Shown here: one piece after another, positions 3,027-18,084 of the stretch
Numbering within the stretch: position 1 is the stretch's first letter
How the letters are laid out: each line of letters opens with the position of its first letter
Source: Rhizobium albus
GTDB taxonomy: Bacteria > Pseudomonadota > Alphaproteobacteria > Rhizobiales > Rhizobiaceae
NCBI GenBank assembly: GCA_030160035.1
Contig: BSNO01000003.1
Span: forward strand, 620,001-684,000
DNA length: 64,000 nt
Reading direction: 5' to 3'
The notes under the pieces: generated by a model
The model's database searches: none
What the model saw: only the letters and a program-made list of their open reading frames with translations
Told to the model about the DNA's origin: nothing
Translations under genes and position numbers: made by a program

Positions 3027-3070
3027 GGCTCTTTCCTTTTCTGTGAGACCGTGAGATAGACCCAGAGGTT

Positions 3071-3095: not shown

Positions 3096-3121
3096 TCATG
3101 ATTCATCGAGAGTCCGAATGC

Positions 3122-4154: not shown

Positions 4155-4778
4155 TCAACGCCGGCGAGCGGAACCCTTCAGTGCAGCAATAATTGCGACG
4201 GCTTCGCTGGCGAGTTGATCGCGCGTGGGGGTTACCCCCAGGACCACCATGCGCCAGTACAACGGGGCCGGAAGCAAGTCGAGCGCTAGGTCCCGATCGA
4301 CGCCAGCATCCAACTCGCCCCGCCTGATCGCGCGGTCCAGAATGACCTGAGCTTGCTCTCGGCGGGCATGCGCTACCTGAGTGTTCAATTCCCGCATCGG
4401 AGCAGACCGCGCAGCTTCGGCATGAAGATCCGGCAGGATGCGACGGATTGTTGGGTGGCGAAAGACCACTCGCAGGCGGATTAGGAAAGTCAAAACGTCA
4501 GCTTCGAGACTTCCGTGGTCTTCTGGCATGGCTAGCTTCAGCCCGAGTGATGACACGGCTGCCGCTGCGAATTCATGGTGCGACGAGAAACGGCGATAGA
4601 TTGCCGCTTTGCCTGCCCCGGCTCTGGCAGCCACGCGTTCAAGACTTATGGCAGCAAAGCCACGTTGCGCCCATTCTTCGAAGAATGCGCGGTAAAGAGT
4701 ATCGGTCAATGCAGCGCTCTTCACAGCCGCTCCAGACGGCTTTCTTCTGGTTTTTAGGACGGAACGGTTGCGTTCCAA
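4155..4778 (-). CDS. TetR-family transcriptional regulator
   Basis: Up to 207 residues. The N-terminal helix-turn-helix (ISLERVAARAGAGKAAIYRRF) is followed by a helical ligand-binding domain of the TetR_C type. The longest start is a TTG at 4778; a GTG at 4724 with GGAG upstream would give 189 residues. The longer form keeps a basic TRRKPSG segment that many TetR proteins have before helix 1, so I keep it. The gene is divergent from the SnoaL/NmrA pair, and a paired inverted repeat at 4757-4819 overlaps the promoter region and its 5' end, which suggests autorepression and repression of the neighbours. Confidence 0.88.
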   Translation of the reverse strand: MERNRSVLKTRRKPSGAAVKSAALTDTLYRAFFEEWAQRGFAAISLERVAARAGAGKAAIYRRFSSHHEFAAAAVSSLGLKLAMPEDHGSLEADVLTFLIRLRVVFRHPTIRRILPDLHAEAARSAPMRELNTQVAHARREQAQVILDRAIRRGELDAGVDRDLALDLLPAPLYWRMVVLGVTPTRDQLASEAVAIIAALKGSARRR

Positions 4779-4819
4779 CGAAGCGCCTCCTATATCGTCG
4801 ATACGTTACCGTTCCGTCC
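4757..4819. promoter_or_regulatory. Paired TetR-type operator
   Basis: GGACGGAACGGTTGCG at 4757-4772 is repeated on the other strand at 4819-4804 as GGACGGAACGGTAACG, with 14 of 16 bases identical, pointing inward across the divergent promoters. The left arm also contains its own dyad, GGAACG-N4-CGTTCC (4761-4776). Two matching sites in the TetR/SnoaL intergenic region are what a local TetR repressor would bind. The symmetry is seen directly; the binding protein is inferred. Confidence 0.65.
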
Positions 4820-4831
4820 ATATGAGGTTTC

Positions 4832-5275
4832 ATGATGTCTGACAAGTTCGATAGCTTCTCCGACCTGCTTCGCGGAGCATTGGGTGAACGGCTCGCCCCT
4901 GCGGACATCTTGCTCGACATGTTCACCGATGATGTTCTCTTCGAGTTTCCCTATGCGCCCGATGGGCTGCCCGGCCGACTGGAAGGGACACCGGCCCTTG
5001 CGGCTCATCTCGAGAAACTCGGTCCATTACTCACCTTTGGGCCGATGCACCTGGGCAATGTTCATGCCGTCGGCGAAACAGTGATCTTCGAGTTTTCTTG
5101 CACCGGTCAGGGTGTGAAAACGGGCGCTCCATACGATCAAGTCTATATTTCGGTCGTCACTCTGCGCGAAGGGCGCATCGCGCACTATCGTGACTATTGG
5201 AACCCGCTCGTCGTGCTGACGGCGTTGGGGGGTACGAACGCCGCCGCCGCCGCATATGCCGGTGCAGCCCAATGA
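4832..5275 (+). CDS. Nuclear transport factor 2/SnoaL-like protein
   Basis: A 147-residue protein of the NTF2-like alpha+beta barrel type (SnoaL-like). It opens with a helical segment and continues with the pattern DVLFEFPYAPDG ... VIFEFSCTG ... REGRIAHYRDYWNP, typical of SnoaL/ketosteroid-isomerase-like proteins. Such proteins act as isomerases, hydratases or cyclases, or simply bind ligands; no reaction can be assigned. ATG codons occur at 4832 and 4835, preceded by TGAGG. Its stop overlaps the next gene's start in an ATGA arrangement, so the two are translationally coupled. Confidence 0.85.
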   Translation: MMSDKFDSFSDLLRGALGERLAPADILLDMFTDDVLFEFPYAPDGLPGRLEGTPALAAHLEKLGPLLTFGPMHLGNVHAVGETVIFEFSCTGQGVKTGAPYDQVYISVVTLREGRIAHYRDYWNPLVVLTALGGTNAAAAAYAGAAQ

Positions 5276-6105
5276 TGGTCGAGCGGGTCCTCATTACCGG
5301 TGGCAAAGGCAAGACTGGACGTCGCGTGGCGTCTCGCTTGAGTGCCGCTGGCATCAACGTCGACATCGGCACACGCACGCCAGACGGTCGCCAAGACAGG
5401 CGTTTCGATTGGTCAGATCCAACTTCTGCATCCGCCTTCGAGGGATGCGATGCGGTCTACCTTGTAGCGCCGACCGATCGCACGGACCACTTGGCAGTCA
5501 TGCAACCTTTACTGGAGGCGGCGATGGCACGCGGCGTCCGGCGCTTCGTTCTGCTCAGCTCGTCGCTTCTGGAACCCGGCGGTCCCATGATGGGTGAGGT
5601 TCATGAATGGTTGGCAAAGAGCGCGCCGGATTGGGCCGTCCTGCGCCCGTCTTGGTTCATGCAGAATTTCTCTGAAGGGCCACACGCCGGGACGATTTGG
5701 GAAGAGGGGGCTATTTACACAGCCACCGGCGCCGGACGTGTTGGCTTCATCGACGCCGAAGACATCGCCGCCACGGCCGCAGCGTGCCTGACTGCCGCAA
5801 CGCCACTCAACTCCGACGTTGTGCTGACGGGACCGGAGGCATTGAGTTACGACGATGCCGCAGCGATCATCGCTGCGGCTCTTGGTCGTCCAGTTCACCA
5901 TGTATCGCTTGACCCGGCCTCTCTGACAGCGCGTCTGGTGTTGCAGGGATTACCGGCCAACTATGCCGAGACGCTCACGGCTTTGGACGCACACATCGCA
6001 GCAGGCGCTGAAGATTGCACGACTTCGGGCGTTGAACAGGTGACAGGGCGACGGCCCACGCCATTTCGCGCATTTGTGCAGCGCGTCCTCGAACGGTGGA
6101 AGTGA
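5272..6105 (+). CDS. NmrA/NAD(P)H-binding atypical SDR
   Basis: A 277-residue Rossmann protein with the GxxGxTG motif near the start (ITGGKGKTGR), a GCDAVYLVAP strand, and the conserved VLRPSWFMQNF block of NmrA-like quinone reductases and ergot-type dehydrogenases. I chose the ATG at 5272 because it overlaps the SnoaL stop by one codon (ATGA) and places the Rossmann motif at residue 9; a longer in-frame start at 5197 would lie inside the upstream gene. Catalytic Tyr/Lys cannot be fixed with certainty. The pair is probably repressed by the divergent TetR protein. Confidence 0.88.
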   Translation: MMVERVLITGGKGKTGRRVASRLSAAGINVDIGTRTPDGRQDRRFDWSDPTSASAFEGCDAVYLVAPTDRTDHLAVMQPLLEAAMARGVRRFVLLSSSLLEPGGPMMGEVHEWLAKSAPDWAVLRPSWFMQNFSEGPHAGTIWEEGAIYTATGAGRVGFIDAEDIAATAAACLTAATPLNSDVVLTGPEALSYDDAAAIIAAALGRPVHHVSLDPASLTARLVLQGLPANYAETLTALDAHIAAGAEDCTTSGVEQVTGRRPTPFRAFVQRVLERWK

Positions 6106-6593
6106 CGCGCGAGGCCCCGGATCAAACCTTTGAGGGGATCTGGTCTTAGCCCTTCGACGCAGGCCGCAGCAGCCCGCCTCAATCATCTGTCTGTTGCGGG
6201 TGGCACGTCGCGAGCACCAGGCAAACGAGTTTCAATGACCGAAAAAGGATCGCAAGCGGTCGTTAAGAACAGCCTCAGCTTAATGGCAGCTTCTCGTGCG
6301 TCTTCACCCAAAATCGGACTGTCCGGAAACGGCCCCCAAATCGCCTTGGGAAATTATTTCCTCAATTTGATCCGCTGACCGTACGTCGACTACGGAAATG
6401 GGTTAGGTGACGGACTGCCCGCTTCTGTTGACGAGCATCGGTAAGCACACTGTGGCTCCGCACTACCCCACGATCTGCTTCGTTCACGATACCTCACTGT
6501 TCCTTTTGGCATATCACTATCAGATGTTGGCATCTGATCGATCGCCGCAGGACAGGAACAAGCGCCGGCAGAACCGCCTTTTGGAGCAATCCC
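6106..6593. other. Intergenic gap with one degenerate dispersed repeat
   Basis: This 488-bp stretch lies between the convergent NmrA-like gene and the sensor kinase gene. Short open frames here match nothing I recognise. It contains a copy of a repeat that recurs near 17.0 kb (listed separately). No terminator with a clear T-run is visible. Confidence 0.6.
6248..6370 (+). repeat. Dispersed intergenic repeat, copy A
   Basis: A segment with the core AATGGCAGCTTCTCGTGCG and an adjoining TCTTCACCCAAAATCGG, then CGGCCCC and GGGAAAT-ATTTCC. It matches copy B at 16967-17087 over roughly 110-120 bp, with an uninterrupted identical core of about 45 bases. It has no coding capacity I recognise. Confidence 0.75.
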
Positions 6594-7955
6594 TCAGATG
6601 AACGCTGCATTAGGGGAAGCCTCGGGGTCGTCGGTGGGCAACCTAATGGATGCCTCGAAACCGGACGATCCTCTGGACCTCGGCGATTTCAGGCTGAGCG
6701 AGGTGCCGATCCGATTCGCGATGGCTGCGACGATGGCAAGGCCTAGCCCGCTGCCATCGCTATTCGCGTTCGCTCGTTCGAAGCGTGCCGTCAGGCGGTC
6801 GAGCATTTCGCGCGGCACCACGGGACCATCGTTCGCGACAACGAGGTGGCCGTCCGCCGTCAGCGTCACCTCGACTGCCAAATTTTCCGCTCCGTGACGG
6901 AGAGCGTTTTCCACAAGGTTTCGGCACAAGATGGCGAAGGCGTCGGGGTCAAGGTCCGACATGACGGCTGCGTCGGGAAGGTTCAGGACGATGCGGCCAG
7001 GAGCGCCCGCGCGTCCTATATCGTCTACCACGACGCGTGCGACCGCCTTCAGGTCTGCGCTCCGGTCCATCCGCAGCCTCCCGCCTTCCGCCCGCGCGAG
7101 CTGCATGAGGCGTTCGGAGAGTCGGGTCAGACGTTTGAGTGTCGCCTCGATCTCAGTGGCACGAGCTTCGGTCGCCGGCTCGTGCGTCTCCGTTTTCAGC
7201 CGCTGCGCCTGGGCGATTGCGCCGGCCAACGGCGTTCTCAACTCGTGTGCCGCGTTCGCGGCAAAGCTGCGCTCGGCCTCGAACGCATCGCGCAGCCGGG
7301 CCAGAAGACCGTTGAGTGTCGCGGCCAGCGGACCAATCTCCGTCGGCAGATCGCTCGCGGGAACCTCCGACAAGTCACGGGCACTGCGCGCCTCCAGCCG
7401 AGCGCGGAACCGGCGCAGGGGATCCAGGCTGAAGCGGACCGCCAGGATGATGGCCGCAAGCGCGACCGGCAGGACGATCAGGAGCGGCAGGCCGAGCCCC
7501 ATCTGGATCTCCCGCGCGACCGACGCGCGATGGGCCAGCGGCTCGGCCACGGTAATCCGGATCGTGTCCTGAAGCGCCGCGTCGCTGTAGAGCCGGTGGG
7601 TTGCGGTCTGCCGAAATCCCTGACCGTCCCAGGGTGGGAACACGGCAGGGTCGGCCGCGTGCGATTGCAGCAGGATGCGCCCCTCGACATCGCGCACGAG
7701 GTAGGTGAAGAATTCGTCGTGCTCCCGGATGGGCGCGAGCCGCTGCGTCACGCCCTGATCTTCCCGCCCGACGATATCGGTCACCGCAAGCGGCAGGATC
7801 CGTTCCGCAGTCTCCCGCAGGGCGCTGTCGAAGACCTCGTCCAGCTCGCCCCGGACGATCACGGCCGTTACCGTCGCCGCGAGCAGCCACAGCACCGTAA
7901 GCGCCAGGCCGAGCGACAGGCCGAGCCGGCCCTGAAGGCTCGCAGGCCATTTCAT
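6594..7955 (-). CDS. Two-component sensor histidine kinase (EnvZ/QseC-like layout)
   Basis: 453 residues from the ATG at 7955, which overlaps the response regulator stop (ATGA). A transmembrane helix at about 13-34 and a second at about 152-174 frame a periplasmic sensor of about 115 residues. HAMP-like sequence follows, then HisKA with AAHELRTPL (His237), the N box RNLVENALRHG (Asn350) and the G box DGSGLGLAI (400-408). A longer frame upstream would lie inside the regulator gene. It presumably phosphorylates the adjacent regulator in response to a periplasmic or envelope signal; the PepSY and redox genes across the divergent promoter are the likely targets. Confidence 0.93.
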   Translation of the reverse strand: MKWPASLQGRLGLSLGLALTVLWLLAATVTAVIVRGELDEVFDSALRETAERILPLAVTDIVGREDQGVTQRLAPIREHDEFFTYLVRDVEGRILLQSHAADPAVFPPWDGQGFRQTATHRLYSDAALQDTIRITVAEPLAHRASVAREIQMGLGLPLLIVLPVALAAIILAVRFSLDPLRRFRARLEARSARDLSEVPASDLPTEIGPLAATLNGLLARLRDAFEAERSFAANAAHELRTPLAGAIAQAQRLKTETHEPATEARATEIEATLKRLTRLSERLMQLARAEGGRLRMDRSADLKAVARVVVDDIGRAGAPGRIVLNLPDAAVMSDLDPDAFAILCRNLVENALRHGAENLAVEVTLTADGHLVVANDGPVVPREMLDRLTARFERANANSDGSGLGLAIVAAIANRIGTSLSLKSPRSRGSSGFEASIRLPTDDPEASPNAAFI

Positions 7956-8611
7956 GATTTGCCGAGCCTGTAGCCCATGCCGCGCTCGGTCTCGATGACC
8001 GAAGCCCCGAGCTTCTTGCGCAGGCGGCTGACATGGACCTCGATGGTGTTGCTCTCCACCTCGGCATCGAAGGCGTAGAGCTTCTCCTCCAGCTGTGCCT
8101 TGGACAGCAGTTGACCGGGGCGTGCGAGGAAGGCGTCGAACAGCGCCCATTCCCGTGCCGTCAGTTGCACTGGTTTGCCGTCCCGGTGAACGCTGCGCGC
8201 CGCGAGGTCGATTTCAAGCGGCCCGTGGCTAACGATGGGGTTCGGGTTGCCGCTGTAGCGCCGGGCGACTGATCCGATCCGGGCGGAGAGCTCGGCCAGA
8301 TCGAAAGGCTTCACGAGATAGTCGTCGGCGCCCGCGTTCAGCCCCTCGATCCGATCCGAAACTTGGTCGAGCGCGGTCAGGATGATGACCGGGGTCACGT
8401 CTCCGCGCGCGCGCAGGCTCTTCAGGAAGCCGATCCCGCGACCGTCCGGCAGCATCAGGTCGAGCAGGATCAGGTCATAGGACGCGGATTTCACAGCGTC
8501 GCCGGCCGCATCGAGGCGCATCACCCAATCGACCGACTGCCCATCGGCCGCGATCTGGTCGCGCACCGCCGCGCCAAGCACCGTGTCGTCCTCGATCAGC
8601 AGGATGCGCAT
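7952..8611 (-). CDS. OmpR/PhoB-family response regulator
   Basis: 219 residues. The receiver has acidic residues Glu7/Asp8/Asp9, the phospho-acceptor Asp51 (LLDLMLPDG) and a KPF lysine near 101; a winged-helix DNA-binding domain fills the last 90 residues (EVHVSRLRKKLG). The start at 8611 gives the canonical MRILLIEDD opening; an upstream in-frame ATG at 8662 is less likely. The gene is divergent from the PepSY gene at 8756. The 11-bp-spaced CTGA direct repeats at 8656-8672 and 9830-9846 are candidate binding sites, since OmpR-type dimers bind repeats with this spacing. Confidence 0.94.
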   Translation of the reverse strand: MRILLIEDDTVLGAAVRDQIAADGQSVDWVMRLDAAGDAVKSASYDLILLDLMLPDGRGIGFLKSLRARGDVTPVIILTALDQVSDRIEGLNAGADDYLVKPFDLAELSARIGSVARRYSGNPNPIVSHGPLEIDLAARSVHRDGKPVQLTAREWALFDAFLARPGQLLSKAQLEEKLYAFDAEVESNTIEVHVSRLRKKLGASVIETERGMGYRLGKS

Positions 8612-8655
8612 GCTCGTTCCCGTCCTCTTCCGATGACCCTCCATGATCCGCCTGG

Positions 8656-8672
8656 CTGACACGAAGCTGAAG
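8656..8672 (+). promoter_or_regulatory. Candidate response-regulator box 1
   Basis: CTGACACGAAGCTGAAG contains two CTGA half-sites 11 bp apart in the divergent region between the response regulator and the PepSY gene. A second copy with 15 of 17 matching bases lies at 9830-9846 before the next transcript of the same locus. The spacing is typical of OmpR/PhoB-type sites. A related inverted CTGTCAGCTTCG occurs near 8699. Confidence 0.6.
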
Positions 8673-8755
8673 ATGCGGGGTACGTCCCTTCAGGCTGCTG
8701 TCAGCTTCGCCGCGCATGAATTTCGTCAAGATGGCCGCATCGAGGAGTTTGGCCC

Positions 8756-9076
8756 ATGAAGAAGACATTGACCATTTTCGGCTTTCTCGCGGTCTTCCCG
8801 GCTGGAGTCGCGCTGGCGGACGACGACTGCTTCGTGCCGATGGCCGACTGGCAGCCGCGCGACGCCGTCGCCCAGCTGGCCGAGGAGAACGGCTGGACGG
8901 TGCGCCGGATCAAGATCGACGACGGCTGCTACGAAATCGACGGCCGCGACGCCGAGGGGCGCCGGATCGAGGTGACCGTTCATCCGGCGACGCTCCAGGT
9001 GATCGAGTTCGAATACGAGGACGAGGACGACGACGATCGCCCCCGCCGGGATCGCGAGGGAGCCGACGATGACTGA
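8756..9076 (+). CDS. Small periplasmic PepSY-domain protein
   Basis: A 106-residue secreted protein with a clear Sec signal peptide (MKKTLTIFGFLAVFPAGVALA). The mature part has a PepSY-like fold pattern: a helix (AVAQLAEENGWTVRRIKI), then strands with GCYEIDGRDAEGRRIEVTVHPATLQVIE, ending in an Asp/Glu/Arg-rich tail. Proteins of this type often sit beside QseBC-like two-component systems and membrane cytochromes and are proposed to modulate them or bind metals. Its stop overlaps the next gene by eight bases, so it is co-translated with the cytochrome. Confidence 0.85.
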   Translation: MKKTLTIFGFLAVFPAGVALADDDCFVPMADWQPRDAVAQLAEENGWTVRRIKIDDGCYEIDGRDAEGRRIEVTVHPATLQVIEFEYEDEDDDDRPRRDREGADDD

Positions 9077-9740
9077 CGCAATCCCACACCAAGGGCCAGA
9101 GATGAGCACGGGGCCGAGCAGCAAGGTCCGTGTCTGGGATCCGCTGGTCCGCGTGTTCCATTGGGGCCTGGTCGCAGCCTTCGCGACCGCATGGCTGACT
9201 GCGGACGAGCTGCAACCTGTCCATGAGTTCGCAGGCTACACCGTCGCCGCACTTGTGGCCTTCCGGCTGGTCTGGGGCCTCGTCGGCAGTCGCTACGCGC
9301 GCTTCGCCCAATTCCTGAAAGGCCCCGGCGAGACGCTGGCCTATCTCGGAGACATGACCCGCGGACGCGAGCGGCGCTACCTCGGCCACAACCCGGCGGG
9401 CGCGGCGATGGTCGTGGCGCTGCTGGTTGCGCTGTCAGGGACGGCTTTCACCGGCTGGCTCATGGAGGACGAGGCCCGTCTGGCGATGCTTCCGTCCATG
9501 CCCGCCATCGTGGCGCCCGCCTGGGCCGACGACGACGGTGGCGAGCGCGAATATGGCGAGCGCGGTGAAGTCGAGGGCCCGCTGAAGGAGGTCCACGAGA
9601 CGCTCGCCAACCTGATGCTGCTGCTTGCCGCGCTGCATGTGGGCGGCGTCGTGCTGGCCTCCTTCCGTCACCACGAAAATCTGGCGCGCGCCATGGTGAC
9701 CGGCGACAAGCGCGGACCCGGTCCCGGCGACATCGCCTGA
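9069..9740 (+). CDS. Cytochrome b561/Ni-Fe-hydrogenase-type b subunit
   Basis: A 223-residue membrane protein with four predicted helices. Histidines placed for bis-His haem ligation are His31 (VFHWG), His52 (VHEFAGY), His176 (VHETLANL) and His190 (ALHVGG), matching the cytochrome b/b6 N-terminal-like family. Between helices 3 and 4 is an unusual acidic loop rich in Asp and Glu (around 153-170). A start at 9102 is also possible; 9069 overlaps the PepSY gene. It probably moves electrons across or within the inner membrane to or from a periplasmic partner. A strong terminator follows it. Confidence 0.9.
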   Translation: MTDAIPHQGPEMSTGPSSKVRVWDPLVRVFHWGLVAAFATAWLTADELQPVHEFAGYTVAALVAFRLVWGLVGSRYARFAQFLKGPGETLAYLGDMTRGRERRYLGHNPAGAAMVVALLVALSGTAFTGWLMEDEARLAMLPSMPAIVAPAWADDDGGEREYGERGEVEGPLKEVHETLANLMLLLAALHVGGVVLASFRHHENLARAMVTGDKRGPGPGDIA

Positions 9741-9772
9741 CAGCACCCAACCCCACGGCCGACCGTCCCTTC

Positions 9773-9812
9773 GGCCCCGCCTGGCCTCGCCCTCACGGGC
9801 GGGGCCTTTTTT
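9773..9812 (+). terminator. Rho-independent terminator after the cytochrome b gene
   Basis: GGCCCCGCC (9773-9781) pairs with GGCGGGGCC (9798-9806), followed by TTTTTT. It separates the PepSY/cytochrome transcript from the downstream Asp-rich/DUF2271/flavoreductase/apbE transcript. Confidence 0.85.
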
Positions 9813-9829
9813 CGTCCGACGCTCTCTTC

Positions 9830-9846
9830 CTGACAGCAAGCTGAAG
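9830..9846 (+). promoter_or_regulatory. Candidate response-regulator box 2
   Basis: CTGACAGCAAGCTGAAG differs from the box at 8656-8672 only at two central bases and keeps the 11-bp spacing of its CTGA halves. It lies about 80 bp upstream of the Asp-rich gene and just after a terminator, where the promoter of the second transcript should be. Confidence 0.6.
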
Positions 9847-9924
9847 CGGGAATCGCGGACGCGTCAGGAAGCCCTCAGGTCGGATCTCCAGATTGTCCTC
9901 AGCAGATGACAAGGAGACCCTGCC

Positions 9925-10287
9925 ATGAAGAAGACCCTGACACTTCTGGTCGCATCCACGGCACTGACCGCTGCGATCGGCGTCCCCGCCTGGAGTGCCA
10001 TGCAAGCCCCAGCCGATGGCGTCCTTCGGCCCATTGCCGCGCTCTTCGATGATGCCTCGCAAGCCATGCCGCTCGTTCTCGCAAGCGACGATGACGACGA
10101 CGACCGATGGCGGGACGGTTCGCGTCGCGGTCACGACGATGACGACGATGACGATGACTGCGACGACGATGATGACGACGACGATTGCCGCGGTGGCGCT
10201 CGCAATCCCGCGCCCGCCGGCACAACCGCCCCTCCGCAGAACGGTCTCTTCGGGAACGGCGCACCTCCGCAGGTTCAGGTGAACTGA
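9925..10287 (+). CDS. Secreted Asp-rich low-complexity protein
   Basis: A 120-residue protein with a Sec signal peptide (MKKTLTLLVASTALTAAIGVPAWSA) and a good Shine-Dalgarno AAGGAG. Residues of about 54-87 are almost all aspartate, with a DRWRDGSRRGHD interruption and two cysteines eight Asp residues apart. The C-terminus is Pro/Gln/Asn-rich. I recognise no family. The run of acidic side chains suggests divalent-cation binding or a charged mobile tether in the periplasm; this is inference. It is first in a transcript with the DUF2271, flavoreductase and ApbE genes. Confidence 0.7.
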   Translation: MKKTLTLLVASTALTAAIGVPAWSAMQAPADGVLRPIAALFDDASQAMPLVLASDDDDDDRWRDGSRRGHDDDDDDDDCDDDDDDDDCRGGARNPAPAGTTAPPQNGLFGNGAPPQVQVN

Positions 10288-10326
10288 ACCGCTCTCGAGC
10301 CCCATCTCCGAACAAGGACCATCCCG

Positions 10327-10797
10327 ATGAAATCGATTCTCGCAACGCTCGCGCTGACCACGGCGTTGACGATTCCCGGCCTCGCCATGGCAAGGCCGGT
10401 GACGCTCACCACGACCCTCAACAATTACGGCGGCGACGGGGCGTATCTCGCGCTCTACGTCACCGACGCCTCGGGCGCCTATGTCGGCAGTCTCTGGATG
10501 GCTGGAGGCAAGTCCAAGTACTACGAGCATCTGAGCGACTGGTACCGCGCCACCGGCGGCGACACCGCGCAGGTCAACGGCATCACCGGCGCCAGCGTCG
10601 ACGCGGGCCGCACGCTCGAGATCACGCTCGACCTCGCCGACGCGCTCTTCGACGCGGGCTACACTCTCCACATCGACGCGGCCGTCGAGGACATGCGCGA
10701 CAGCCCGAACGAGGTGGCCGTACCGCTCACGACCGATGGCGCGGGCACGCCGGTGACCGGGCGCCGGTACGTCGCCAGCTTCGCCTACGACATGTGA
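10327..10797 (+). CDS. DUF2271 periplasmic protein, predicted flavinylated electron carrier
   Basis: A 156-residue secreted protein with a signal peptide ending near AMA (residue 22). The mature part reads as a DUF2271 domain (TLNNYGGDGAYLALYVTD ... GGKSKYYEHLSDWYRAT). Residues 86-90 are ITGAS, a Thr-Gly-Ala-Ser motif like the one to which ApbE attaches FMN in FMN-binding domains and in known flavinylated DUF2271 proteins; Ser90 would be the acceptor. An ApbE gene lies 2.2 kb downstream in the same transcript. I infer a covalent-FMN periplasmic carrier that accepts electrons from the following membrane flavoreductase. The physiological acceptor is unknown. Confidence 0.85.
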   Translation: MKSILATLALTTALTIPGLAMARPVTLTTTLNNYGGDGAYLALYVTDASGAYVGSLWMAGGKSKYYEHLSDWYRATGGDTAQVNGITGASVDAGRTLEITLDLADALFDAGYTLHIDAAVEDMRDSPNEVAVPLTTDGAGTPVTGRRYVASFAYDM

Positions 10798-10808
10798 GGA
10801 GCGGGGCC

Positions 10809-13016
10809 ATGATCCGCGCACTCCATCGCTGGCCGGGTCTTCTGGCCCTCGCGCTCGTCACCATCCTGAGCCTGAGCGGCGCGGCTCTGTCGGTCTTCCC
10901 TGCGGCCGAGCGCATCACCGCGCCGCAGGCGGAAGCCGGACTGACTGTCGCCGCTCTCGCGGACCGCATCCAAGCCGTCTATCCGGGCGTCGAGCAGATC
11001 CGCCGGTCGCCCTCAGGTCGGATCACCGCCTACTGGTTCGATCAGGGCGCGCCGGGCGCCGCCGTGATCGACCCGGCGACGGGCGAGGGCGTGGCCTCGG
11101 CCGACCCGAACCAGGCCGAACGCTGGCTGACCAACCTGCACCGGTCGCTGTTCCTCGGTGATGGCGGCCGCTTCGCCATGGCTGCAGGGGCCGCCGCCAT
11201 GCTGATCCTCTCGCTCTCCGGGGCCGCCCTTGTCGTGCGGCGGGCTGGCGGTTGGCGGCACTGGTTCGCGCCCCTGCGCGGACCGCTCGCCGGGCGGCTG
11301 CACGCCGAGATCGCCCGGATTGCTGTCGTCGGCCTCGTCCTGTCCTCCACGACCGCCCTCTGGATGACGGCGTCTACCTTCGATCTTCTACCAGACGGAG
11401 GCTCCATGCCGGCCGTCCCCGCCGAGGTAAGCGGGGAGACGGGGTTCGCGCTCGATCAGATGATTACGTTGCGGCAGACGCCCGTCGCCGAGCTGCGCGA
11501 GCTGAGCTTTCCCTATCCCGGCGACGCGACGGACGTCTTCACGGTCAAGACGGACCGGGGCACGGGATATCTCGATCAGGGCGACGGCGCTCTCCTGGCC
11601 TGGGCCGACCTGACAGGATGGGAGCGCGTCTCGGAGACCATCTACATGCTGCACACCGGACAGGGGGCGGCGACGCTGGGGCTCGTGCTCGGGCTCATGG
11701 CGCTCGGCGTGCCCGCGATGGGCGCGACGGGTGTGGTGATCTGGCTCGCCGGGCGGCGCGGTCGACCGCGCATCCGGGGAAATCAGCCCGCCGGTCGCGC
11801 CAAGACGATTCTGCTCGTCGGCAGCGAGGGCGGCAGCACCTGGGGCTTCGCCGCGACCTTGCAGGCCGCACTTACAGAAGCCGGGCAGAGCGTCCATGTC
11901 GGCCCGATGTCGGGCTTCGCGCCGGAGCGATATGCGCGGGCGGAGCGGATCATCCTGCTCGCCGCGACCTATGGCGACGGGGCGGCGCCGGCCTCAGCGA
12001 AAGGCTTTCTCGACCGGCTGAACGCTTCCGACCGCGCGCCGAACATCCCTCTCGCGGTACTCGGCTTCGGCGACCGGAGCTTTCCGGCCTATTGTGCCTT
12101 CGCCAAGTCCGTCGCGGCAGCGGCGGAGGCGAAGGGCTGGCCCGAACTGCTGGCTCTCGACACCATCGACCGCCAGTCTCCGCAGGATTTCGCGCGTTGG
12201 GGCCGGGCGCTCGGAGACGTGCTCGGGATAAGACTCGAACTGTCGCACCGGCCTGTCCAGACGCAGACGACCACGCTGACCCTCGTCTCACGGCGCGACT
12301 ACGGCGCCGAGGTGCAGGCGCCGACCACGATCCTGCGCTTCGCGCTTCCGCATGCCTCGCTCTGGCAACGTCTGCGCGGCGCCGGGTTCGCCCGGTTCCA
12401 CGCGGGCGACCTGATCGGCATTCTGCCCGAAGGAGGCGCCGTCCCGCGGCTCTACTCTCTCGCCTCCGGACGCCGCGACAGCTTCATCGAGATCGTGGTC
12501 AAGAAACATCCCGGCGGCCTCTGCTCGGGTCAGCTCACGGCGTTGGAGCCGGGCGACACGGTGGCCGCCTTCCTCCGCCGCAATCCGGGTTTCCGTCCGG
12601 GCCGGAGCCGCGCGCCGCTGATCCTGATCGGGGCGGGCACGGGGATCGGACCGCTTGCGGGCTTCGTGCGCGGCAACGCCCGCCACAGGCCGATCCACCT
12701 CTTCTTCGGGATGCGCCATCCCGACAGCGACTTCTTCTACGGCGAGGAGCTGGTGACTTGGCAGGACGAGGGGCGTCTGACGCGGCTGGTCACGGCCGTC
12801 TCACGCGGGGCGCGTCCCCACTATGTCCAGGACGCGCTGCGCGGCGAGGCCACTCAGGTCGCGGAGCTCATCCGCAATGGGGCGCGCGTGATGGTCTGCG
12901 GCGGACGAGACATGGCAACTGGCGTGGCGGATGCGCTGGCCGAGATCCTCGCACCGGCCGGGCTGACGCCGGCGGTCCTGAAGGCGGAGGGGCGGTATGT
13001 CGAAGATGTCTACTGA
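10809..13016 (+). CDS. PepSY-TM / flavodoxin / FNR fusion flavoreductase
   Basis: 735 residues. The N-terminal third is a PepSY-associated membrane region with helices near 9-31, 119-136, 160-180 and 281-303, with PepSY-like segments between. A flavodoxin-like domain starts near 332 (TILLVGSEGGSTWGF), and a CPR/sulfite-reductase-type FNR module fills about 490-735, with the FAD motif RLYSLAS (547-553), the nucleotide motif GAGTGIGPL (about 608-616) and the terminal RYVEDVY. It should take electrons from cytoplasmic NADPH or NADH through FAD and FMN to the membrane part. The ATG at 10809 follows GAGGAG. It overlaps apbE by 20 bp. Confidence 0.92.
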   Translation: MIRALHRWPGLLALALVTILSLSGAALSVFPAAERITAPQAEAGLTVAALADRIQAVYPGVEQIRRSPSGRITAYWFDQGAPGAAVIDPATGEGVASADPNQAERWLTNLHRSLFLGDGGRFAMAAGAAAMLILSLSGAALVVRRAGGWRHWFAPLRGPLAGRLHAEIARIAVVGLVLSSTTALWMTASTFDLLPDGGSMPAVPAEVSGETGFALDQMITLRQTPVAELRELSFPYPGDATDVFTVKTDRGTGYLDQGDGALLAWADLTGWERVSETIYMLHTGQGAATLGLVLGLMALGVPAMGATGVVIWLAGRRGRPRIRGNQPAGRAKTILLVGSEGGSTWGFAATLQAALTEAGQSVHVGPMSGFAPERYARAERIILLAATYGDGAAPASAKGFLDRLNASDRAPNIPLAVLGFGDRSFPAYCAFAKSVAAAAEAKGWPELLALDTIDRQSPQDFARWGRALGDVLGIRLELSHRPVQTQTTTLTLVSRRDYGAEVQAPTTILRFALPHASLWQRLRGAGFARFHAGDLIGILPEGGAVPRLYSLASGRRDSFIEIVVKKHPGGLCSGQLTALEPGDTVAAFLRRNPGFRPGRSRAPLILIGAGTGIGPLAGFVRGNARHRPIHLFFGMRHPDSDFFYGEELVTWQDEGRLTRLVTAVSRGARPHYVQDALRGEATQVAELIRNGARVMVCGGRDMATGVADALAEILAPAGLTPAVLKAEGRYVEDVY

Positions 13017-13977
13017 GCGCGTTCGCATCGCCCTGAACGGACCGACCATGGGTACGCGCTGGTCGGCACTGTTCTTCGCGGAGCCGGACTTCGACCCGGC
13101 CCCGATCCGCGCGGCGCTGCAGGCGGCCGTGGAAGAGGTGGACGGACAGATGTCGACCTGGAACGCGGGCAGCGACCTGATGCGGCTCAACGCGGCGCCG
13201 GTGGGAGAATGGGTGGCGGTGCCCGCGCAACTGGCCGCGGTCCTGCGCCTCGGCCTCGAGATCGGGCGCGCCTCGGGCGGGGCGTTCGACATTGGCATGG
13301 GCGACGCGGTGACGGCCTGCGGCTTCGGGCCCGGGGACGCCGCGCCGGATGGCATCCGCGCCGCGATGACCGCCTCACGCCGCCCGGCACATGAGGCGCT
13401 GGAGATGGACGATGCCCGCGTGCGCAAGGCCGCATCCCTGAAACTCGACCTCAACGGTATCGCCAAAGGCTATGGCGTCGACCGGCTCGCCGAGACCCTG
13501 CGCGATCATGGGATTTCGGATGGACTCGTCGGGATCGATGGCGAAATGCGTGCAATGGGGCTCCGGCCGGACGGCGAGGCCTGGACCATCGCGGTCGAGG
13601 CGCCTGACGCCGAGCGCCGCACACCGCATTCGATCCTCGCGCTGCAGGATGCCGCCGTCGCCACCTCGGGCGACTACCGTCACTGGGTCGAGGTGCAGGG
13701 ACGCCGCCTGTCGCACACGATGGACCCGCTGCGCGGCGCGCCGCTGATCGCGTCGCCGGCCTCGGTAACCGTCGTGGCTCGAACCTGTGCCGAAGCCGAT
13801 GCGTGGGCGACGGCCCTCATGGTGCTTGGGCCGGACAAAGGCGCGGCGCTCGCAAGACGAAGCGGGCTCGACGCCCTGTTCCTCTTGCGCGATGATGATG
13901 CCAGCGCACGGGGCGTGGGAGTCGGACGACTATTTTCCGAAGAGCCAGCGGCAATCGCCTCAGCCGAGGGGAGATAG
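12997..13977 (+). CDS. apbE: FAD:protein FMN transferase (ApbE)
   Basis: A 326-residue ApbE-family enzyme, which uses FAD to attach FMN covalently to Thr or Ser of target proteins. Visible motifs are PTMGTRW (16-22), MSTW (52-55), LDLNGIAKGYGVD (150-162), ATSGDYR (222-228), HTMDP (240-244) and the metal-binding CAEADAWATALMVLG (264-278). Unlike most ApbE proteins it has no signal peptide or lipobox: the start overlaps the upstream gene and no upstream extension is open in this frame. It therefore looks cytoplasmic, or is exported by an unrecognised route. The likely substrate is the DUF2271 protein of the same transcript. Confidence 0.92.
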   Translation: MSKMSTERVRIALNGPTMGTRWSALFFAEPDFDPAPIRAALQAAVEEVDGQMSTWNAGSDLMRLNAAPVGEWVAVPAQLAAVLRLGLEIGRASGGAFDIGMGDAVTACGFGPGDAAPDGIRAAMTASRRPAHEALEMDDARVRKAASLKLDLNGIAKGYGVDRLAETLRDHGISDGLVGIDGEMRAMGLRPDGEAWTIAVEAPDAERRTPHSILALQDAAVATSGDYRHWVEVQGRRLSHTMDPLRGAPLIASPASVTVVARTCAEADAWATALMVLGPDKGAALARRSGLDALFLLRDDDASARGVGVGRLFSEEPAAIASAEGR

Positions 13978-13982
13978 GCCGC

Positions 13983-14273
13983 ATGGAGACGACACGGACC
14001 GACCGCTTCAAGACCGCTATCCTGCTCATTGCCGCGACCGGCCTAATTGCGGGACTTGCCTTTCACCTTTCTGGCAGAACCGAGACAGCGAGCCTGGTCT
14101 GGATCGCCGGCTCTTTCCCACGATGGAGGTCGATTGGGGCATTTCAGCAGGAGCTCCTCGAAGACGCCGTGATCCCAGACGAGTTGCGCTTTGCGCCCCA
14201 CGAGCCCGCCACTCTGAAATTGAAGGCTGTCTCTGATGGGCAGATCGATTTCGTGCAAGGAAATACAACATGA
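13983..14273 (+). pseudogene. N-terminal stub resembling a heavy-metal P-type ATPase
   Basis: A 96-residue frame. The first 45 or so residues (RFKTAILLIAATGLIAGLAF ... ASLVWIAGSFP) look like the N-terminal membrane start of a subgroup of P1B metal ATPases. After residue 46 the resemblance ends and the rest is charged, unrelated sequence (RWRSIGAFQQELLEDAV and onward). None of the ATPase hallmarks (CPC, DKTGT, GDGxND) follow. I read it as a remnant left by a deletion or rearrangement just before the VIT gene, whose start it overlaps. It could instead be a genuine small membrane protein. Confidence 0.5.
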
Positions 14274-14971
14274 GCCGCCTTTCGCATTTAGAAATCCACA
14301 TGGTGCATCGCATCGGTTGGCTACGGGCGGCGGTGCTCGGAGCCAACGACGGACTGGTGTCGACTGCGAGTCTTGTGGTCGGCGTCGCCGCAGCGGGATC
14401 CGGAAAGTCGGAGGTCCTGATCGCCGGGATGGCTGGCCTCGTCGCCGGTGCGATGTCCATGGCGGCTGGCGAGTATGTCTCCGTAAGTTCCCAGACTGAT
14501 GCTGAAAGGGCCGACTTGGCCCGCGAAACCCGCGAACTTTCAGAGACGCCCGAAGCCGAGCTAGAGGAGCTGACAAATATCTATGTGGACCGAGGGCTCG
14601 ACCGTGATCTGGCCGAGAAAGTCGCTGTTCAGTTAACCGAGCGCGACGCCTTAGGAGCGCATGCACGCGACGAACTCGGGATCTCAGAGACCGTCACGGC
14701 TCGCCCGATTCAGGCGGCTTTGGTTTCCGCGCTGACGTTCGCCGTCGGGGCCGTGGTGCCCCTGATCGTCGCGTTGCTGGCGCCCGAGGCGCAGATCGCA
14801 GTTCTTGTGGCGGCATCAACGGTTGCTGGTCTGGCCGTCCTCGGCGGCCTCGGAGCATCCGCTGGCGGTGCGGCGCTTGTTCGCGGGGCTGCGAGGGTCA
14901 CGTTATGGGGGGTGCTCGCGATGGCCGCGACAGCAATGGTAGGAACTCTGTTCGGTGTTACGGTAGGTTAG
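14270..14971 (+). CDS. VIT1/CCC1 family iron/manganese transporter
   Basis: A 233-residue membrane protein of the VIT family. It has the hallmark opening HMVHRIGWLRAAVLGANDGLVSTASLVVGV, then MAAGEYVSVSSQTDAERADL at the end of helix 2. A cytoplasmic helical segment with acidic residues (ETPEAELEELTNIYVDRGL) binds metal in this family, and a three-helix C-terminal half follows. These carriers move Fe2+ or Mn2+ out of the cytoplasm, usually by proton antiport. The ATG at 14270 overlaps the upstream stub's stop. It may relate to the adjacent redox locus, but it is a separate function. Confidence 0.92.
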   Translation: MSRLSHLEIHMVHRIGWLRAAVLGANDGLVSTASLVVGVAAAGSGKSEVLIAGMAGLVAGAMSMAAGEYVSVSSQTDAERADLARETRELSETPEAELEELTNIYVDRGLDRDLAEKVAVQLTERDALGAHARDELGISETVTARPIQAALVSALTFAVGAVVPLIVALLAPEAQIAVLVAASTVAGLAVLGGLGASAGGAALVRGAARVTLWGVLAMAATAMVGTLFGVTVG

Positions 14972-15230
14972 GAAATCCGCTGATCTCGAAAACTGGCTGC
15001 TTTTCCTCGCGCAGACTTACTCCTTGGCATTCTGCTGTGGATCATTTCGAAACGTCACCTTTTTTCGTTCAAAAGCCGACAAATCAGCAGTCTGCACCGA
15101 AAGCGTCGATGAATAAACATCTCCTAACCTCTAGAGAACCGTGTGACGCCTGTGGCTGGACTGGGATATTTTTTGCCTGACGGCTTGCCGACATAAAAGT
15201 CCCGAAGCTGCCTTTCGATCCACCGCAACG

Positions 15231-16799
15231 TCAGAGTTCGTAGACGCGATCGAAGCCAACCCGCTCCACAAAGGACTGATCGTGGCTTACGACGAGAAGC
15301 GCACCATCGAAGTCCCGCAAAGCGTTCTCCAGGAGCTCGACCGATTCGATGTCGAGGTGATTGGTCGGTTCATCCAGGATGACGAGCCATGGCGGCGGCG
15401 ACCCCGATAGCGTCGCGGCAAGGCCCGCCTTCAAACGTTCGCCGCCGGACAGCGTCCTGACGACCTGGTTCGCATCCTGGTTGCGAAATGCGAAGCGGGC
15501 ACAGATCGCGTAGGCTTCCTCGTCGCTGGCATCCGGATGCAGCCGGCGGATGTTGTCCAGAATGCTTTTGTCGGGATGGAGCAGGCTGACATGCTGGTCG
15601 AGTATGACGATGCGGCCCGCGGCGCGGTGAACCGTTCCCGCCATGGGCGTGAGCAACCCTGCGGCGACGCGCAGAAGCGTCGTCTTACCGCTGCCGTTTG
15701 GCCCCTTCAAGGCGACGCGTTCTGGCCCGTTGATGCGCAAGTTCCATGGGCCAAGGAGACGATCCCCGGCTTTGGCCACCACGCCATCCATGGAGAGAAC
15801 GTTGGCCCCAGAGGGTAGCCCGGTCGGTGGAAGAGCGATCGTCAGCGGTGTCATGACCTCCACCCTCGCACGAGCCTCTTCCGCCTCTGTCAGGGCTTCG
15901 CCCAAGCGTCGATCGTTGATCGCCTGCGCCCGCCCGCCGCTGTTCTCCGCGCGCTCGGCCCGCGCATCCAGCAACAGCTTCGGCTCAGACCCCTTGGACG
16001 CGAACGAACGTCCCGCTCTGTCGCGTCGCTCCTTTGCTTCGCGCTGTGCTTGGGCGGCTTGGCGTGCCTTGCGTACGCTGGCATCGGCGCGCTCCAGCTC
16101 GGCGCTGGCGCGGCGCCGATCCTTATCTCGAGCAGCGACGAAAGCAGACCAACCTCCGCCGAAACTGCGTGCTCCGATCGTCGTCAACTCCAGAATGCGG
16201 TCCACGTCTTCCAGAAGCTCTCGATCATGGCTGGCGACAACGACACCTCCGGACCAATCCCGCATCAGGCCACGGATCGCAGCACGACCGGCGACGTCGA
16301 GATTGTTGGTTGGCTCGTCCAGAAGCAGGAGGTCCGGTGCCTCGATGACGAGACGGGCAATGCCGACGCGCATCCGCTCGCCACCCGACAGCGTTCGGAG
16401 ACGACGGTCTAGCGGCAAGTCGGGGAGCCCGACTTGTAGAAGGGCTGCACCGATGCGGCTCTCCAATGTCCAGTCCGCGGTATCCAAATCGATGGCGGTG
16501 CCGTTCCCCGCCAGGATGCGCACCAGCGTCTCCAGACGGTTCGCGACGCCAAGCGCTTCGGCCAAGCTCCAGTCCCCGGGCATGTCCTGCTGGAGAATGC
16601 CGACCGTTCCAGCACGACGCACAGTGCCGGACGATGGCTCAGCGAGGCCAGCGGCGATGCGAAGGAGAGTGGATTTGCCGGAGCCGTTGCGGCCAACAAT
16701 CCCAACTCGTTCTGAACCGATCGCGACCGTTAGATTATGAAAGAGCGGGTGATCAGACGTTCGAGCGGAGACAGTATCGAGCGTGAGGAAGGCAGACAT
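15231..16799 (-). CDS. ABC-F family ATP-binding protein
   Basis: 522 residues with two complete ATP-binding cassettes and no membrane segment. Cassette 1 has VGRNGSGKSTLL, LSGGERMRVGIARL and LLLLDEPTNNLD; cassette 2 has LKGPNGSGKTTLLR, LSGGERLKAGLAATL and LVILDEPTNHLD. A basic, Ala/Arg-rich linker joins them. ABC-F proteins act on ribosomes, either as translation factors or in antibiotic resistance. Nothing here distinguishes the two. I prefer the ATG at 16799 (MSAFLTLDTVSAR); an in-frame ATG at 16826 would add nine residues. The gene stands alone. Confidence 0.93.
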   Translation of the reverse strand: MSAFLTLDTVSARTSDHPLFHNLTVAIGSERVGIVGRNGSGKSTLLRIAAGLAEPSSGTVRRAGTVGILQQDMPGDWSLAEALGVANRLETLVRILAGNGTAIDLDTADWTLESRIGAALLQVGLPDLPLDRRLRTLSGGERMRVGIARLVIEAPDLLLLDEPTNNLDVAGRAAIRGLMRDWSGGVVVASHDRELLEDVDRILELTTIGARSFGGGWSAFVAARDKDRRRASAELERADASVRKARQAAQAQREAKERRDRAGRSFASKGSEPKLLLDARAERAENSGGRAQAINDRRLGEALTEAEEARARVEVMTPLTIALPPTGLPSGANVLSMDGVVAKAGDRLLGPWNLRINGPERVALKGPNGSGKTTLLRVAAGLLTPMAGTVHRAAGRIVILDQHVSLLHPDKSILDNIRRLHPDASDEEAYAICARFAFRNQDANQVVRTLSGGERLKAGLAATLSGSPPPWLVILDEPTNHLDIESVELLENALRDFDGALLVVSHDQSFVERVGFDRVYEL

Positions 16800-17212
16800 G
16801 GGCAACCGTGACAGGTCTTGAAACAAGGCGAATTGCGTCGTTCATCCAGTTATTCACGGCTGCACTCCTTCTATGGTCCACCTTCGACATATTACCTGAG
16901 TGCCTTCCATTCAACCGAACGGCCGGCTTTAGGCATCCGAAGACAGAACCTGGACTCTCGAAATGGGGTCGGAAGCCGTCTTTGAAACAGCTTACGTTTA
17001 ATGGCAGCTTCTCGTGCGTCTTCACCCAAAATCGGACTGTCCGCTTTCGGCCCCGTTCCTGCTGCGGGAAATCATTTCCCAACTTTGATTAGTTGAGCGA
17101 GCGACAAAGACCGTGGTGGGCTTAGTTGCGAGGGGCAGCTTTTGAGCGAGCGTGGCACTGAAGCAGTCATACCTCTACTTGCACGAGCACATTCGATGGT
17201 CGATGATCCGGC
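16800..17212. other. Intergenic gap with dispersed repeat copy B
   Basis: This 413-bp divergent region lies between the ABC-F gene and the DUF1801 gene. Besides the repeat copy (listed separately) I see no gene, terminator or clear promoter. Confidence 0.6.
16967..17087 (+). repeat. Dispersed intergenic repeat, copy B
   Basis: It shares with copy A (6248-6370) the core AATGGCAGCTTCTCGTGCG plus TCTTCACCCAAAATCGG, then TCCGCTTTCGGCCCC and GGGAAATCATTTCC. The flanks GGTCGGAAGCCGTC and CAGCTTACG are also related to copy A. Shorter relatives occur at 17651 and 17781. Confidence 0.75.
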
Positions 17213-17569
17213 ATGACAGAGTTGTTTGACCATGATGCATACATAGCTGCGGCGCCGGAAGCTCTTCGGCCGCAACTTACCGTCGTTCGTGCTCGCTTCA
17301 AGCAGGCTCTTCCTGATGCGAAAGAGGTGATGCGATACGGCATGCCAGGCTTCACTGCTGGAGGCGTGATGATCGTTGGCTACGGAGCGTTCAGCAAACA
17401 GTGCGGCCTCTATGTCAGCAAAGGCGCGATCAACGCACACGCTGACGATATCGCCGCAGCTGGGCTAAAAGCGTCCAAGACCGGTGTTACATTCTCACCA
17501 ACAAAGCCGATACCTGACGAGCTCATTACGGCGCTAGCCGTGGCATCCCGCAAAGATGCGGCGGTCTGA
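17213..17569 (+). CDS. DUF1801 (YdhG-like) protein
   Basis: A 118-residue cytoplasmic protein of the DUF1801/YdhG-like fold. The typical sequence is PQLTVVRARFKQALPDAKEVMRYGMPGF, followed by a strand-rich half that includes KQCGLYVSKGAI and SKTGVTFSPTKPIPDELI. The family is common and structurally known but has no defined biochemical role. The ATG at 17213 lacks a strong Shine-Dalgarno sequence. It stands alone between repeat-bearing gaps. Confidence 0.8.
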   Translation: MTELFDHDAYIAAAPEALRPQLTVVRARFKQALPDAKEVMRYGMPGFTAGGVMIVGYGAFSKQCGLYVSKGAINAHADDIAAAGLKASKTGVTFSPTKPIPDELITALAVASRKDAAV

Positions 17570-17650
17570 CCGCCAATGTCCAAATGAGGTCCAAGCCGCT
17601 TTAAGGACTGGTCGAGGCTCACGGCTGCTATCAGGCTCTCGGCATCTAAA

Positions 17651-17704
17651 AGCGGACAGACCGCTACCGGCCCCTAAGGCGTCCGAGGGAAGACTTTTCC
17701 TAGC
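17651..17704 (+). repeat. Short relative of the dispersed repeat, copy C
   Basis: AGCGGACAGACCGCTACCGG then CCCC and GGGAAGACTTTTCC follow the same order as the 3' half of copy B (GGACTGTCCGCTTTCGGCCCC, GGGAAATCATTTCC). Identity is partial. Confidence 0.5.
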
Positions 17705-17780
17705 TTGCCCACTCCGGCGCCGCCCCCGACTAGACCGATGCCGGAGGCCGAATGTCGGCTTTCTCCGCTTCTTCGCTAGA

Positions 17781-17833
17781 ACCGGAGAGACCGCTCACGG
17801 CCCCGCAGGCGGCGGGAGAAAATGCTTCTCGAC
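17781..17833 (+). repeat. Short relative of the dispersed repeat, copy D
   Basis: ACCGGAGAGACCGCTCACGG followed by CCCC, GCGGCGGGAGAAAATGCTTCTC. It has the same layout as copies B and C but is more diverged. Confidence 0.45.
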
Positions 17834-18084
17834 TAGGCTTGGATGAGTGAACACTTATAGCGAAGGGATGATGAGCTACATTGTTGGGATAGTGCGCTTC
17901 TGCTGAAGGAAAGTCCCGCTAACTCTTCTTTGCACGCACATCATACGAGTCATTAAGCGCTTCAATGGAATTGTGCGCACCTTGCGTCTCGGCGGCGATA
18001 TGTGCGTTGTGGTCGAGTTTGAACCAATAGGCCGAGTCCCGCGCGTTACGCTAAGCGCATTGCAGCTGGTGATCCGAGGGAGCA

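Follow-up and report, generated by a model that had tools for sequence, protein, structure and literature searches.

The 64,000-nucleotide window of Rhizobium albus DNA analyzed here harbors a 10.6-kb insertion bounded by two direct repeats of ≈124 bp, recognized by sequence comparison, with the left copy at 6240–6365 and the right copy at 16959–17083 of the forward strand. The same-genus genome G194 has the empty site, in which the position corresponding to 6365 is joined to the right repeat copy; integration at a tRNA site was considered and rejected, as the sole tRNA lies at 24778, away from the insertion. Two reverse-strand genes in the insertion encode, on the basis of domain matches, a 453-residue QseC/PmrB-like sensor histidine kinase (6594–7955) with 2CSK_N sensor, HAMP, HisKA, and HATPase domains, and a PmrA/QseB-like response regulator of the OmpR family (7952–8611). 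This two-component system (TCS; 6594–8611) is oriented divergently from a forward-strand pair of genes (8756–9740) encoding a secreted PepSY_2 protein (8756–9076; PF13670, E = 5.7e-28) and a cytochrome b561-like membrane protein (9069–9740), the latter identified from a domain match and from the loci of relatives. Four further forward-strand genes encode a secreted Asp-rich protein (9925–10287), a 156-residue DUF2271 protein (10327–10797), a 735-residue fusion protein (10809–13016), and ApbE, an FAD:protein FMN transferase (12997–13977). ORFs and Pfam matches bear out the initial annotation of these four genes, including the ITGAS motif at residues 86–90 of the DUF2271 protein. The Asp-rich protein, recognized from its ORF and its relatives, includes a C-D8-C element and a conserved C-terminal tail, GGARNPAPAGTTAPPQNGLFGNGAPPQVQVN (10189–10284, forward strand), and returned no match in a Pfam search.

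A terminator-like hairpin of 10 pairs followed by T6 (9783–9812, forward strand) separates the PepSY_2/cytochrome b561 pair from the Asp-rich/DUF2271/fusion/ApbE transcript; in the same scan, shuffled sequence yields about equal numbers of matches, yet this hairpin sits exactly in the intergenic gap. The unit does not end with ApbE at 13977. It continues (13983–14971, forward strand) through a P1B heavy-metal ATPase gene remnant (13983–14273), which comparison with the 635-residue protein of relatives reveals to be internally deleted, and an intact gene for a VIT/CCC1-family Fe/Mn transporter (14270–14971). The dedicated TCS and the Asp-rich partner had been recognized from the outset; these metal transporter genes at the 3′ end had been missed. 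A σ70 promoter scan gave no matches, and an Rfam search of 6000–18000 returned nothing.

An inverted CTGA-N7-CTGA box pair, the predicted operator of the response regulator, occurs just twice in the 3.97-Mb genome, at the two promoters of the cassette (promoter 1, 8656–8704; promoter 2, 9830–9878). Operator pairs are seen at both promoters in relatives as well, with both boxes retained at promoter 1 in 69 of 73 relatives and at promoter 2 in 71 of 73. The TCS genes are present in 73 of the 76 relatives with enough flanking sequence; of another 17 diverged loci, 15 have the TCS adjoining the core. The response regulator is 64 to 73% identical in the beta, gamma, and Xanthobacter plasmid loci. 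As read from its operators, the cassette is a dedicated, predicted TCS regulon that includes the TCS itself and the cytochrome b/PepSY pair; this pair had initially been described as separate.

The combination of genes, at first thought unusual, is instead a conserved and often plasmid-borne cassette that occurs across Proteobacteria, newly recognized here by sequence comparison. We find it in 80 loci with gene order kept at 73 to 92% DNA identity, many of which are near-copies, such that these counts are nonindependent. The order is TCS, PepSY_2, a cytochrome b561 or ferric-reductase-like protein, an Asp-rich or PepSY_2 protein, DUF2271, the fusion, and ApbE, often followed by a P1B ATPase and VIT. 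The cytochrome b561-like gene is replaced in relatives by that of a Ferric_reduct/FAD/NAD protein, and the Asp-rich and PepSY_2 alternatives end in one common, near-invariant tail in 79 of 79 loci. Between 71 and 97 plasmid records carry the cassette, and diverged versions are found in other Rhizobiales, Cupriavidus, Marinobacter, and Klebsiella; a search of a phage collection and of E. coli genomes gave no match. The plasmids over which it has spread come from marine Rhodobacterales, Rhizobium, Cupriavidus, and clinical Enterobacteriaceae, and many can conjugate; this distribution suggests that the cassette confers an adaptive trait, related to metals or redox, that passes between bacteria.

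The fusion protein joins a PepSY_TM unit (residues 4–313; PF03929, E = 5.8e-30) to a flavodoxin domain (336–449; Flavodoxin_1, E = 1.7e-10) and an FNR/NAD region (506–735; NAD_binding_1, E = 4.4e-11). In fold comparisons, residues 326–735 match the diflavin reductases cytochrome P450 reductase (CPR) and CysJ with Z ≈ 30, and the flavodoxin, FAD, and NADP domains follow the CysJ/CPR order and fold. Four His residues of the PepSY_TM part (6, 111, 165, and 282) are invariant across relatives and form two conserved pairs in the membrane helices, where they are predicted to ligate heme as in Pseudomonas aeruginosa FoxB (PDB 7ABW; PMC11334425). FoxB is not among the matches listed for the fusion by Foldseek and VIA-align, which are taken up by the diflavin domain; this is not read as absence of a FoxB-like fold in residues 1–320. 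The electron path originally proposed, from NAD(P)H through FAD/FMN and the membrane to FMN-DUF2271, is well supported by the CPR/CysJ-type half, the four invariant His residues, and the conserved TGAS motif (see below), with the membrane heme itself being predicted.

The putative FMN carrier matches DUF2271 (PF10029, E = 4.8e-35) at 120.7 bits, relative to a Pfam gathering cutoff of 27.3, and its N terminus, MKSILATLALTTALTIPGLAMA, resembles a Sec-type signal peptide, with a hydropathy of 1.47 to 1.79 in 81 of 81 relatives. The TGAS motif on whose conservation the initial annotation had staked its proposal is present in all 81 and as [ST]GAS in every distant locus checked; FMN is predicted on Ser90 of the ITGAS sequence (10582–10596, forward strand), and no [ST]GA[ST] motif was found in the rest of the cassette. 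A PDB profile search with the DUF2271 protein gave a single insignificant match (E = 0.47), and a structure prediction was discarded as too poor for use (pLDDT of 53). An apparent DUF2271 fusion in one Methylocella locus was rejected as a frameshift, with DUF2271 spread over two frames. ApbE carries a full domain (PF02424, E = 5.2e-77) with DxxGxxKG and SH..D-type motifs and matches PDB 5mgy (E = 9.5e-60), but lacks the N-terminal signal peptide and lipobox of the exported lipoprotein type; in 72 of 75 close relatives, an in-frame stop lies five codons upstream of the start, and only 16 residues precede the catalytic TMGT.

A simple periplasmic flavinylation can therefore not be assumed. The genome harbors one ApbE and one DUF2271 protein, and a genome search for an FMN_bind protein, a second ApbE, or DUF4198 found none; the pairing of a signal-less ApbE with an exported DUF2271 protein is kept in every close or distant locus inspected that has ApbE. 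Because the sole genomic ApbE is signal-less, the DUF2271 protein carries a signal, and no FMN_bind protein was found, attachment of FMN before export is probable. We tentatively suggest the more specific scheme in which ApbE would flavinylate DUF2271 in the cytosol, with the unfolded, FMN-bearing precursor then exported by Sec. Flavinylation might occur in the periplasm after all, were ApbE exported by a route invisible in the sequence or were another transferase to act: characterized ApbEs are mostly exported lipoproteins, and function required export in one case (PMC12052999), and the Klebsiella and Marinobacter clusters lack an ApbE of their own. The upstream stop, the short segment ahead of TMGT, and the single genomic ApbE make this less likely. 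If correct, cytosolic flavinylation would separate the site where the covalent flavin is installed from the site where it works, and the pairing of an exported substrate with a signal-less ApbE casts doubt on the common assumption that flavinylation of exported proteins takes place in the periplasm.

The intact transporter gene encodes a PF01988 domain (E = 9.6e-67) and is similar to the solved structure of VIT1 (PDB 6iu3, E = 4.9e-19), from which transport is predicted. VIT and/or P1B ATPase genes accompany 49 of the 72 loci with full flanks, and they reappear in altered order both at diverged loci and on plasmids of Xanthobacter, Rhizobium, Klebsiella, and Marinobacter. The ATPase of one relative scores 510 bits against a cutoff of 346 for TIGR01525 and 467 against 314 for TIGR01512, and the NCBIfam model assigns it to the cadmium family. 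Its TPCP/QExxD motifs would presumably place it in P1B-5 (Fe/Ni), an assignment that we do not claim. Two points speak against a role in metal homeostasis. Both transporters are absent nearby in 23 of 72 loci and the ATPase is dead in the window, such that export is dispensable; and the metal movement expected of VIT and P1B proteins is outward, which is hard to square with a module that simply reduces metal for import.

We favor, with moderate confidence, the reading that this is a self-regulated, horizontally acquired transmembrane electron-export cassette for metal homeostasis, which would use NADPH to reduce a periplasmic metal, probably Fe(III). The kinase would sense an envelope signal, probably a metal, and the response regulator, as the conserved boxes suggest, would bind the operators at both promoters and activate the whole cassette. 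The fusion would draw electrons from NADPH via FAD and FMN through its CysJ/CPR-type diflavin unit, as its sequence and fold indicate, and pass them across the membrane via two putative b-type hemes on the four invariant His, in a FoxB-like manner. It would next reduce the Ser90-bound FMN of the secreted DUF2271 protein, as the motif and published DUF2271 biochemistry suggest, this FMN having been attached by ApbE, probably before export. FMN-DUF2271 may then reduce the metal held by the acidic Asp-rich/PepSY_2 partner, and VIT and, in relatives, the P1B ATPase would carry divalent metal across the membrane. The cytochrome b561 or ferric-reductase-like protein would be a second heme protein and an exchangeable, extra point of electron entry.

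The module might instead act in the periplasm as a ferric (siderophore) reductase, supplying ferrous iron for uptake, as proposed for Caulobacter and other PepSY-like clusters and, by Méheust et al. (PMC8238504), for the class; the Caulobacter genes CCNA_03155–03159 are Fur-controlled and required under EDTA, and VIT genes are linked here also. We consider such an iron-acquisition role unlikely: neither a TonB receptor nor Feo recurs beside the 80 loci, DUF4198 was not found in this genome, the cassette is governed by a dedicated TCS through an operator specific to it, as predicted from sequence, and the linked transporters belong to exporter families. Electron delivery to a non-iron acceptor (copper, oxidized protein residues, or an organic compound), with the transporters as passengers, would accommodate their absence from about a third of loci and recalls the Bordetella pertussis PepSY_TM protein CrpH, which is tied to copper and respiratory oxidases, but is improbable, as the re-association of VIT/P1B genes with diverged copies in differing orders is hard to explain by hitch-hiking. 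Finally, that the TCS, Asp-rich, and cytochrome b genes merely adjoin a known DUF2271-PepSY-ApbE cluster by chance has nothing to recommend it except the general patchiness of the locus and is already refuted by the synteny of the 80 loci, the adjoining TCS in diverged loci, and the operator shared by both promoters.

Parts of the favored electron-export cassette have known counterparts. CysJ and CPR share the NADPH-FAD-FMN path of residues 326–735, the C-terminal Tyr, and the SR...YVQ motif, but serve sulfite reductase (SiR) or P450, whereas the diflavin unit of the fusion is tied to a predicted heme domain in the membrane. Ferrisiderophore reductases of the PepSY_TM type, FoxB among them, likewise have a PepSY_TM membrane unit, in which two His pairs ligate heme, as is predicted for the fusion; here, a dedicated NADPH diflavin reductase is fused to this unit, a putative flavoprotein partner is present, and siderophore and TonB receptor genes are absent from those recurring beside the 80 loci. 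The cytosolic Klebsiella pneumoniae ApbE (reviewed in PMC12052999) likewise has no signal peptide, but acts on a fumarate reductase that is soluble, while the only candidate substrate here is Sec-signaled. Caulobacter crescentus CCNA_03155–03159 (PMC3751524, PMC12004947) similarly combines DUF2271, ApbE, a sulfite-reductase-like flavoprotein, and a PepSY membrane protein and is iron-linked, but is Fur-regulated, has DUF4198, and has no TCS described. Alteromonas has fusions that join DUF2271 with either a PepSY_TM-like domain or ApbE (PMC7190382).

The idea of a DUF2271/PepSY/ApbE system is already published, and the cassette core belongs to the known class of PepSY-like flavinylation systems as presented in the main text of Méheust et al. 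(2021, eLife; PMC8238504): a PepSY_TM gene (PF03929/PF16357) lies within five genes of an ApbE, FMN_bind, DUF2271, or DUF3570 gene, at least one target gene (DUF2271) has a predicted signal peptide, and [ST]GA[ST] is conserved in the ApbE-linked DUF2271. That text reports that ApbE flavinylates a DUF2271 homolog at this motif, with covalent FMN demonstrated, and counts 2833 PepSY-like clusters with DUF2271, 1077 PepSY-like genes bearing an NAD-binding domain, and 167 clusters with VIT1. Relative to the systems described there, the present cassette differs in its TCS and operator, in having, in place of DUF4198, an acidic/PepSY partner whose tail is invariant, and in an exchangeable heme protein, signal-less ApbE, and plasmid spread; the passages of the main text considered here do not take up a TCS, the tail, or ApbE location. 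The broad PepSY-like class thereby becomes a defined, testable module, with four hallmarks: a TCS switch whose operator can be recognized, an acidic partner identifiable by its diagnostic tail, a heme protein that can be interchanged, and metal exporters linked to the core.

The genes that the initial annotation had joined into a DUF2271/PepSY-fusion/ApbE electron-transfer module were all recovered at the positions it proposed. A response regulator and kinase (6594–8611, minus strand) diverge from PepSY_2 (8756–9076) and cytochrome b561 (9069–9740) on the opposite strand, with a terminator-like hairpin at 9783–9812 as the predicted 3′ end of the PepSY_2/cytochrome b561 transcript. The second transcript begins with the Asp-rich protein (9925), followed by DUF2271, the 735-residue PepSY_TM/flavodoxin/FNR fusion, ApbE, and further genes; successive gaps of 39 and 11 bp and a 20-bp fusion–ApbE overlap support cotranscription of these four. 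Extra DNA separates fusion and ApbE, which normally overlap, in loci L099 (12992–15251; 2.6 kb) and L105. The cassette is longer than initially reported, as relatives (syntenic loci) reveal a P1B heavy-metal ATPase and a VIT/CCC1 transporter beyond ApbE. The ATPase, intact in relatives (635 residues; TIGR01525, 510 bits), has here suffered an internal deletion of ≈1.6 kb that leaves only both gene ends, joined as one small ORF (13983–14273); the VIT/CCC1 gene (14270–14971) is undamaged, and its product resembles the solved VIT1 structure (6iu3, E 4.9e-19).

Sequence comparisons identify this cassette as mobile. In 80 loci, almost all belonging to genera of the Rhodobacterales and Rhizobiales, DUF2271 is 85 to 97% identical, and the block at 6631–14119 retains its order in relatives at 73 to 92% DNA identity. 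Plasmid records matching cassette DNA number 71 (52 typed conjugative), and those encoding the fusion 97 (70 conjugative). No flanking gene is shared by more than roughly a third of the loci, and those that are shared are mostly plasmid-type. Within the genus, only the window's own genome, one of four, encodes the fusion or DUF2271. In the empty site of a same-genus genome, sequence matching 2000–6365 (93–95%) is joined directly to that matching 16959–17581 (81%), which places ≈10.6 kb of the window between two copies of an ≈124-bp repeat (6240–6365 and 16959–17083) that is dispersed in same-genus genomes. The insertion includes, beside one repeat copy, an ABC-F gene (15231–16826) with a second copy, 93 to 94% identical, elsewhere in the genome (C3:937616–939467). 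Cassette GC content is 65 to 72% versus 57 to 62% in most surrounding sequence. A study of roseobacter plasmids reports heavy metal detoxification genes as common to some of them (PMC5513947). Diverged versions occur on a clinical NDM plasmid of Klebsiella pneumoniae (pNDM1_085031) and a subseafloor Marinobacter plasmid (NP-4); their VIT proteins share one accession (WP_011784790.1), and operator boxes are recognizable in both. A near-identical alphaproteobacterial cassette on a contig labeled Enemella evansiae, an actinobacterium, is probably contamination. The annotated fusion of Methylocella tundrae DUF2271 (L163, 8508–8880) with the reductase that follows it reflects a frameshift; the histidine kinase of this locus also looks broken.

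Fusion residues 326 to 735 resemble P450 reductase and CysJ both in a profile search (E 5e-36) and in a VIA-align comparison (Z about 30 across 390 residues). S665–R666 is invariant and Y672-V-Q674 conserved, together the NADPH-type signature, and a Tyr lies at the C-terminal end. In the PepSY_TM part, His 6, 111, 165, and 282 are invariant; two hemes, as described for FoxB (PMC11334425), would require four such residues. The proposed flavinylation motif proved conserved in ApbE-linked DUF2271 proteins, as TGAS in 81/81 relatives, and every diverged locus has [ST]GAS; no other cassette protein contains the motif. Published work describes a DUF2271 protein that ApbE flavinylates at this motif (PMC8238504), as well as proteins in which DUF2271 is combined with a PepSY_TM-like or an ApbE domain (PMC7190382).

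Cassette ApbE has just 16 residues between its start and the catalytic TMGT motif; in 72 of 75 relatives a stop closes the frame five codons ahead of the start, so a signal peptide cannot fit. By inspection, copies from diverged Rhizobiaceae, other families, and plasmids show the same; in a few the frame stays open further upstream, but the conserved start is the short one. The window's genome yielded no second ApbE, no FMN_bind protein, and one DUF2271, clearly with a signal peptide. Those ApbEs known to be cytosolic act on intracellular proteins (PMC12052999). The simplest reading is that DUF2271 would be flavinylated before export. ApbE is not linked to the Klebsiella and Marinobacter copies, which may rely on a host enzyme.

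Both cassette intergenic regions harbor CTGA-N7-CTGA followed, 34 to 35 bp on, by inverted TCAG-N7-TCAG; PmrA/QseB-type regulators recognize this 11-bp period. Promoter 1 keeps both boxes in 69/73 relatives and promoter 2 in 71/73; these relatives are not independent of one another. The pair essentially never arises in shuffled sequences and occurs in the 3.97-Mb genome only at the two cassette promoters; a reversed control pattern has no match genome-wide. The element is found at 12 of 17 diverged loci of the same order and in Klebsiella, Marinobacter, Xanthobacter, and Paracoccus TOH plasmid copies, some with half only or other spacing; the two Cupriavidus copies lack its strict form. This distribution supports the proposed dedicated two-component system. 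The cytochrome b/PepSY pair, described initially as separate, should also answer to this system.

The fourth slot holds cytochrome b561 in 30 loci and a Ferric_reduct/FAD/NAD protein in 36, and is empty in 10; the gene upstream of DUF2271 encodes an Asp-rich or PepSY_2 protein, each combined with every fourth-slot type. Both versions end in a common C-terminal tail, ...NPAPAGTVAPPQNGLFGNGAPPQVQVN, in 79/79 loci, and a form of it is still recognizable in Rhizobiaceae, other families, and beta/gamma plasmids. Because Asp content varies while the tail stays constant, the tail is likely the functional contact. Asp-rich proteins (9925–10287 and relatives) often place eight Asp between two Cys (C-D8-C), which suggests a disulfide-closed acidic loop.

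VIT and/or the P1B ATPase is linked to the cassette in 49/72 loci, and gene orders differ in diverged copies; this linkage, remade in different orders, points to divalent metal homeostasis. The regulator with its operator, the partner bearing the conserved tail, the exchangeable slot, the ApbE without a signal peptide, and the spread on plasmids do not appear in the consulted passages of papers that mention DUF2271. The cassette core is a member of the published class of "PepSY-like" flavinylation systems, to which published work assigns the reduction of iron for uptake (PMC8238504); here, exporter-type partners, control by a two-component system rather than Fur, and carriage on plasmids would favor tolerance or homeostasis as the likelier role.
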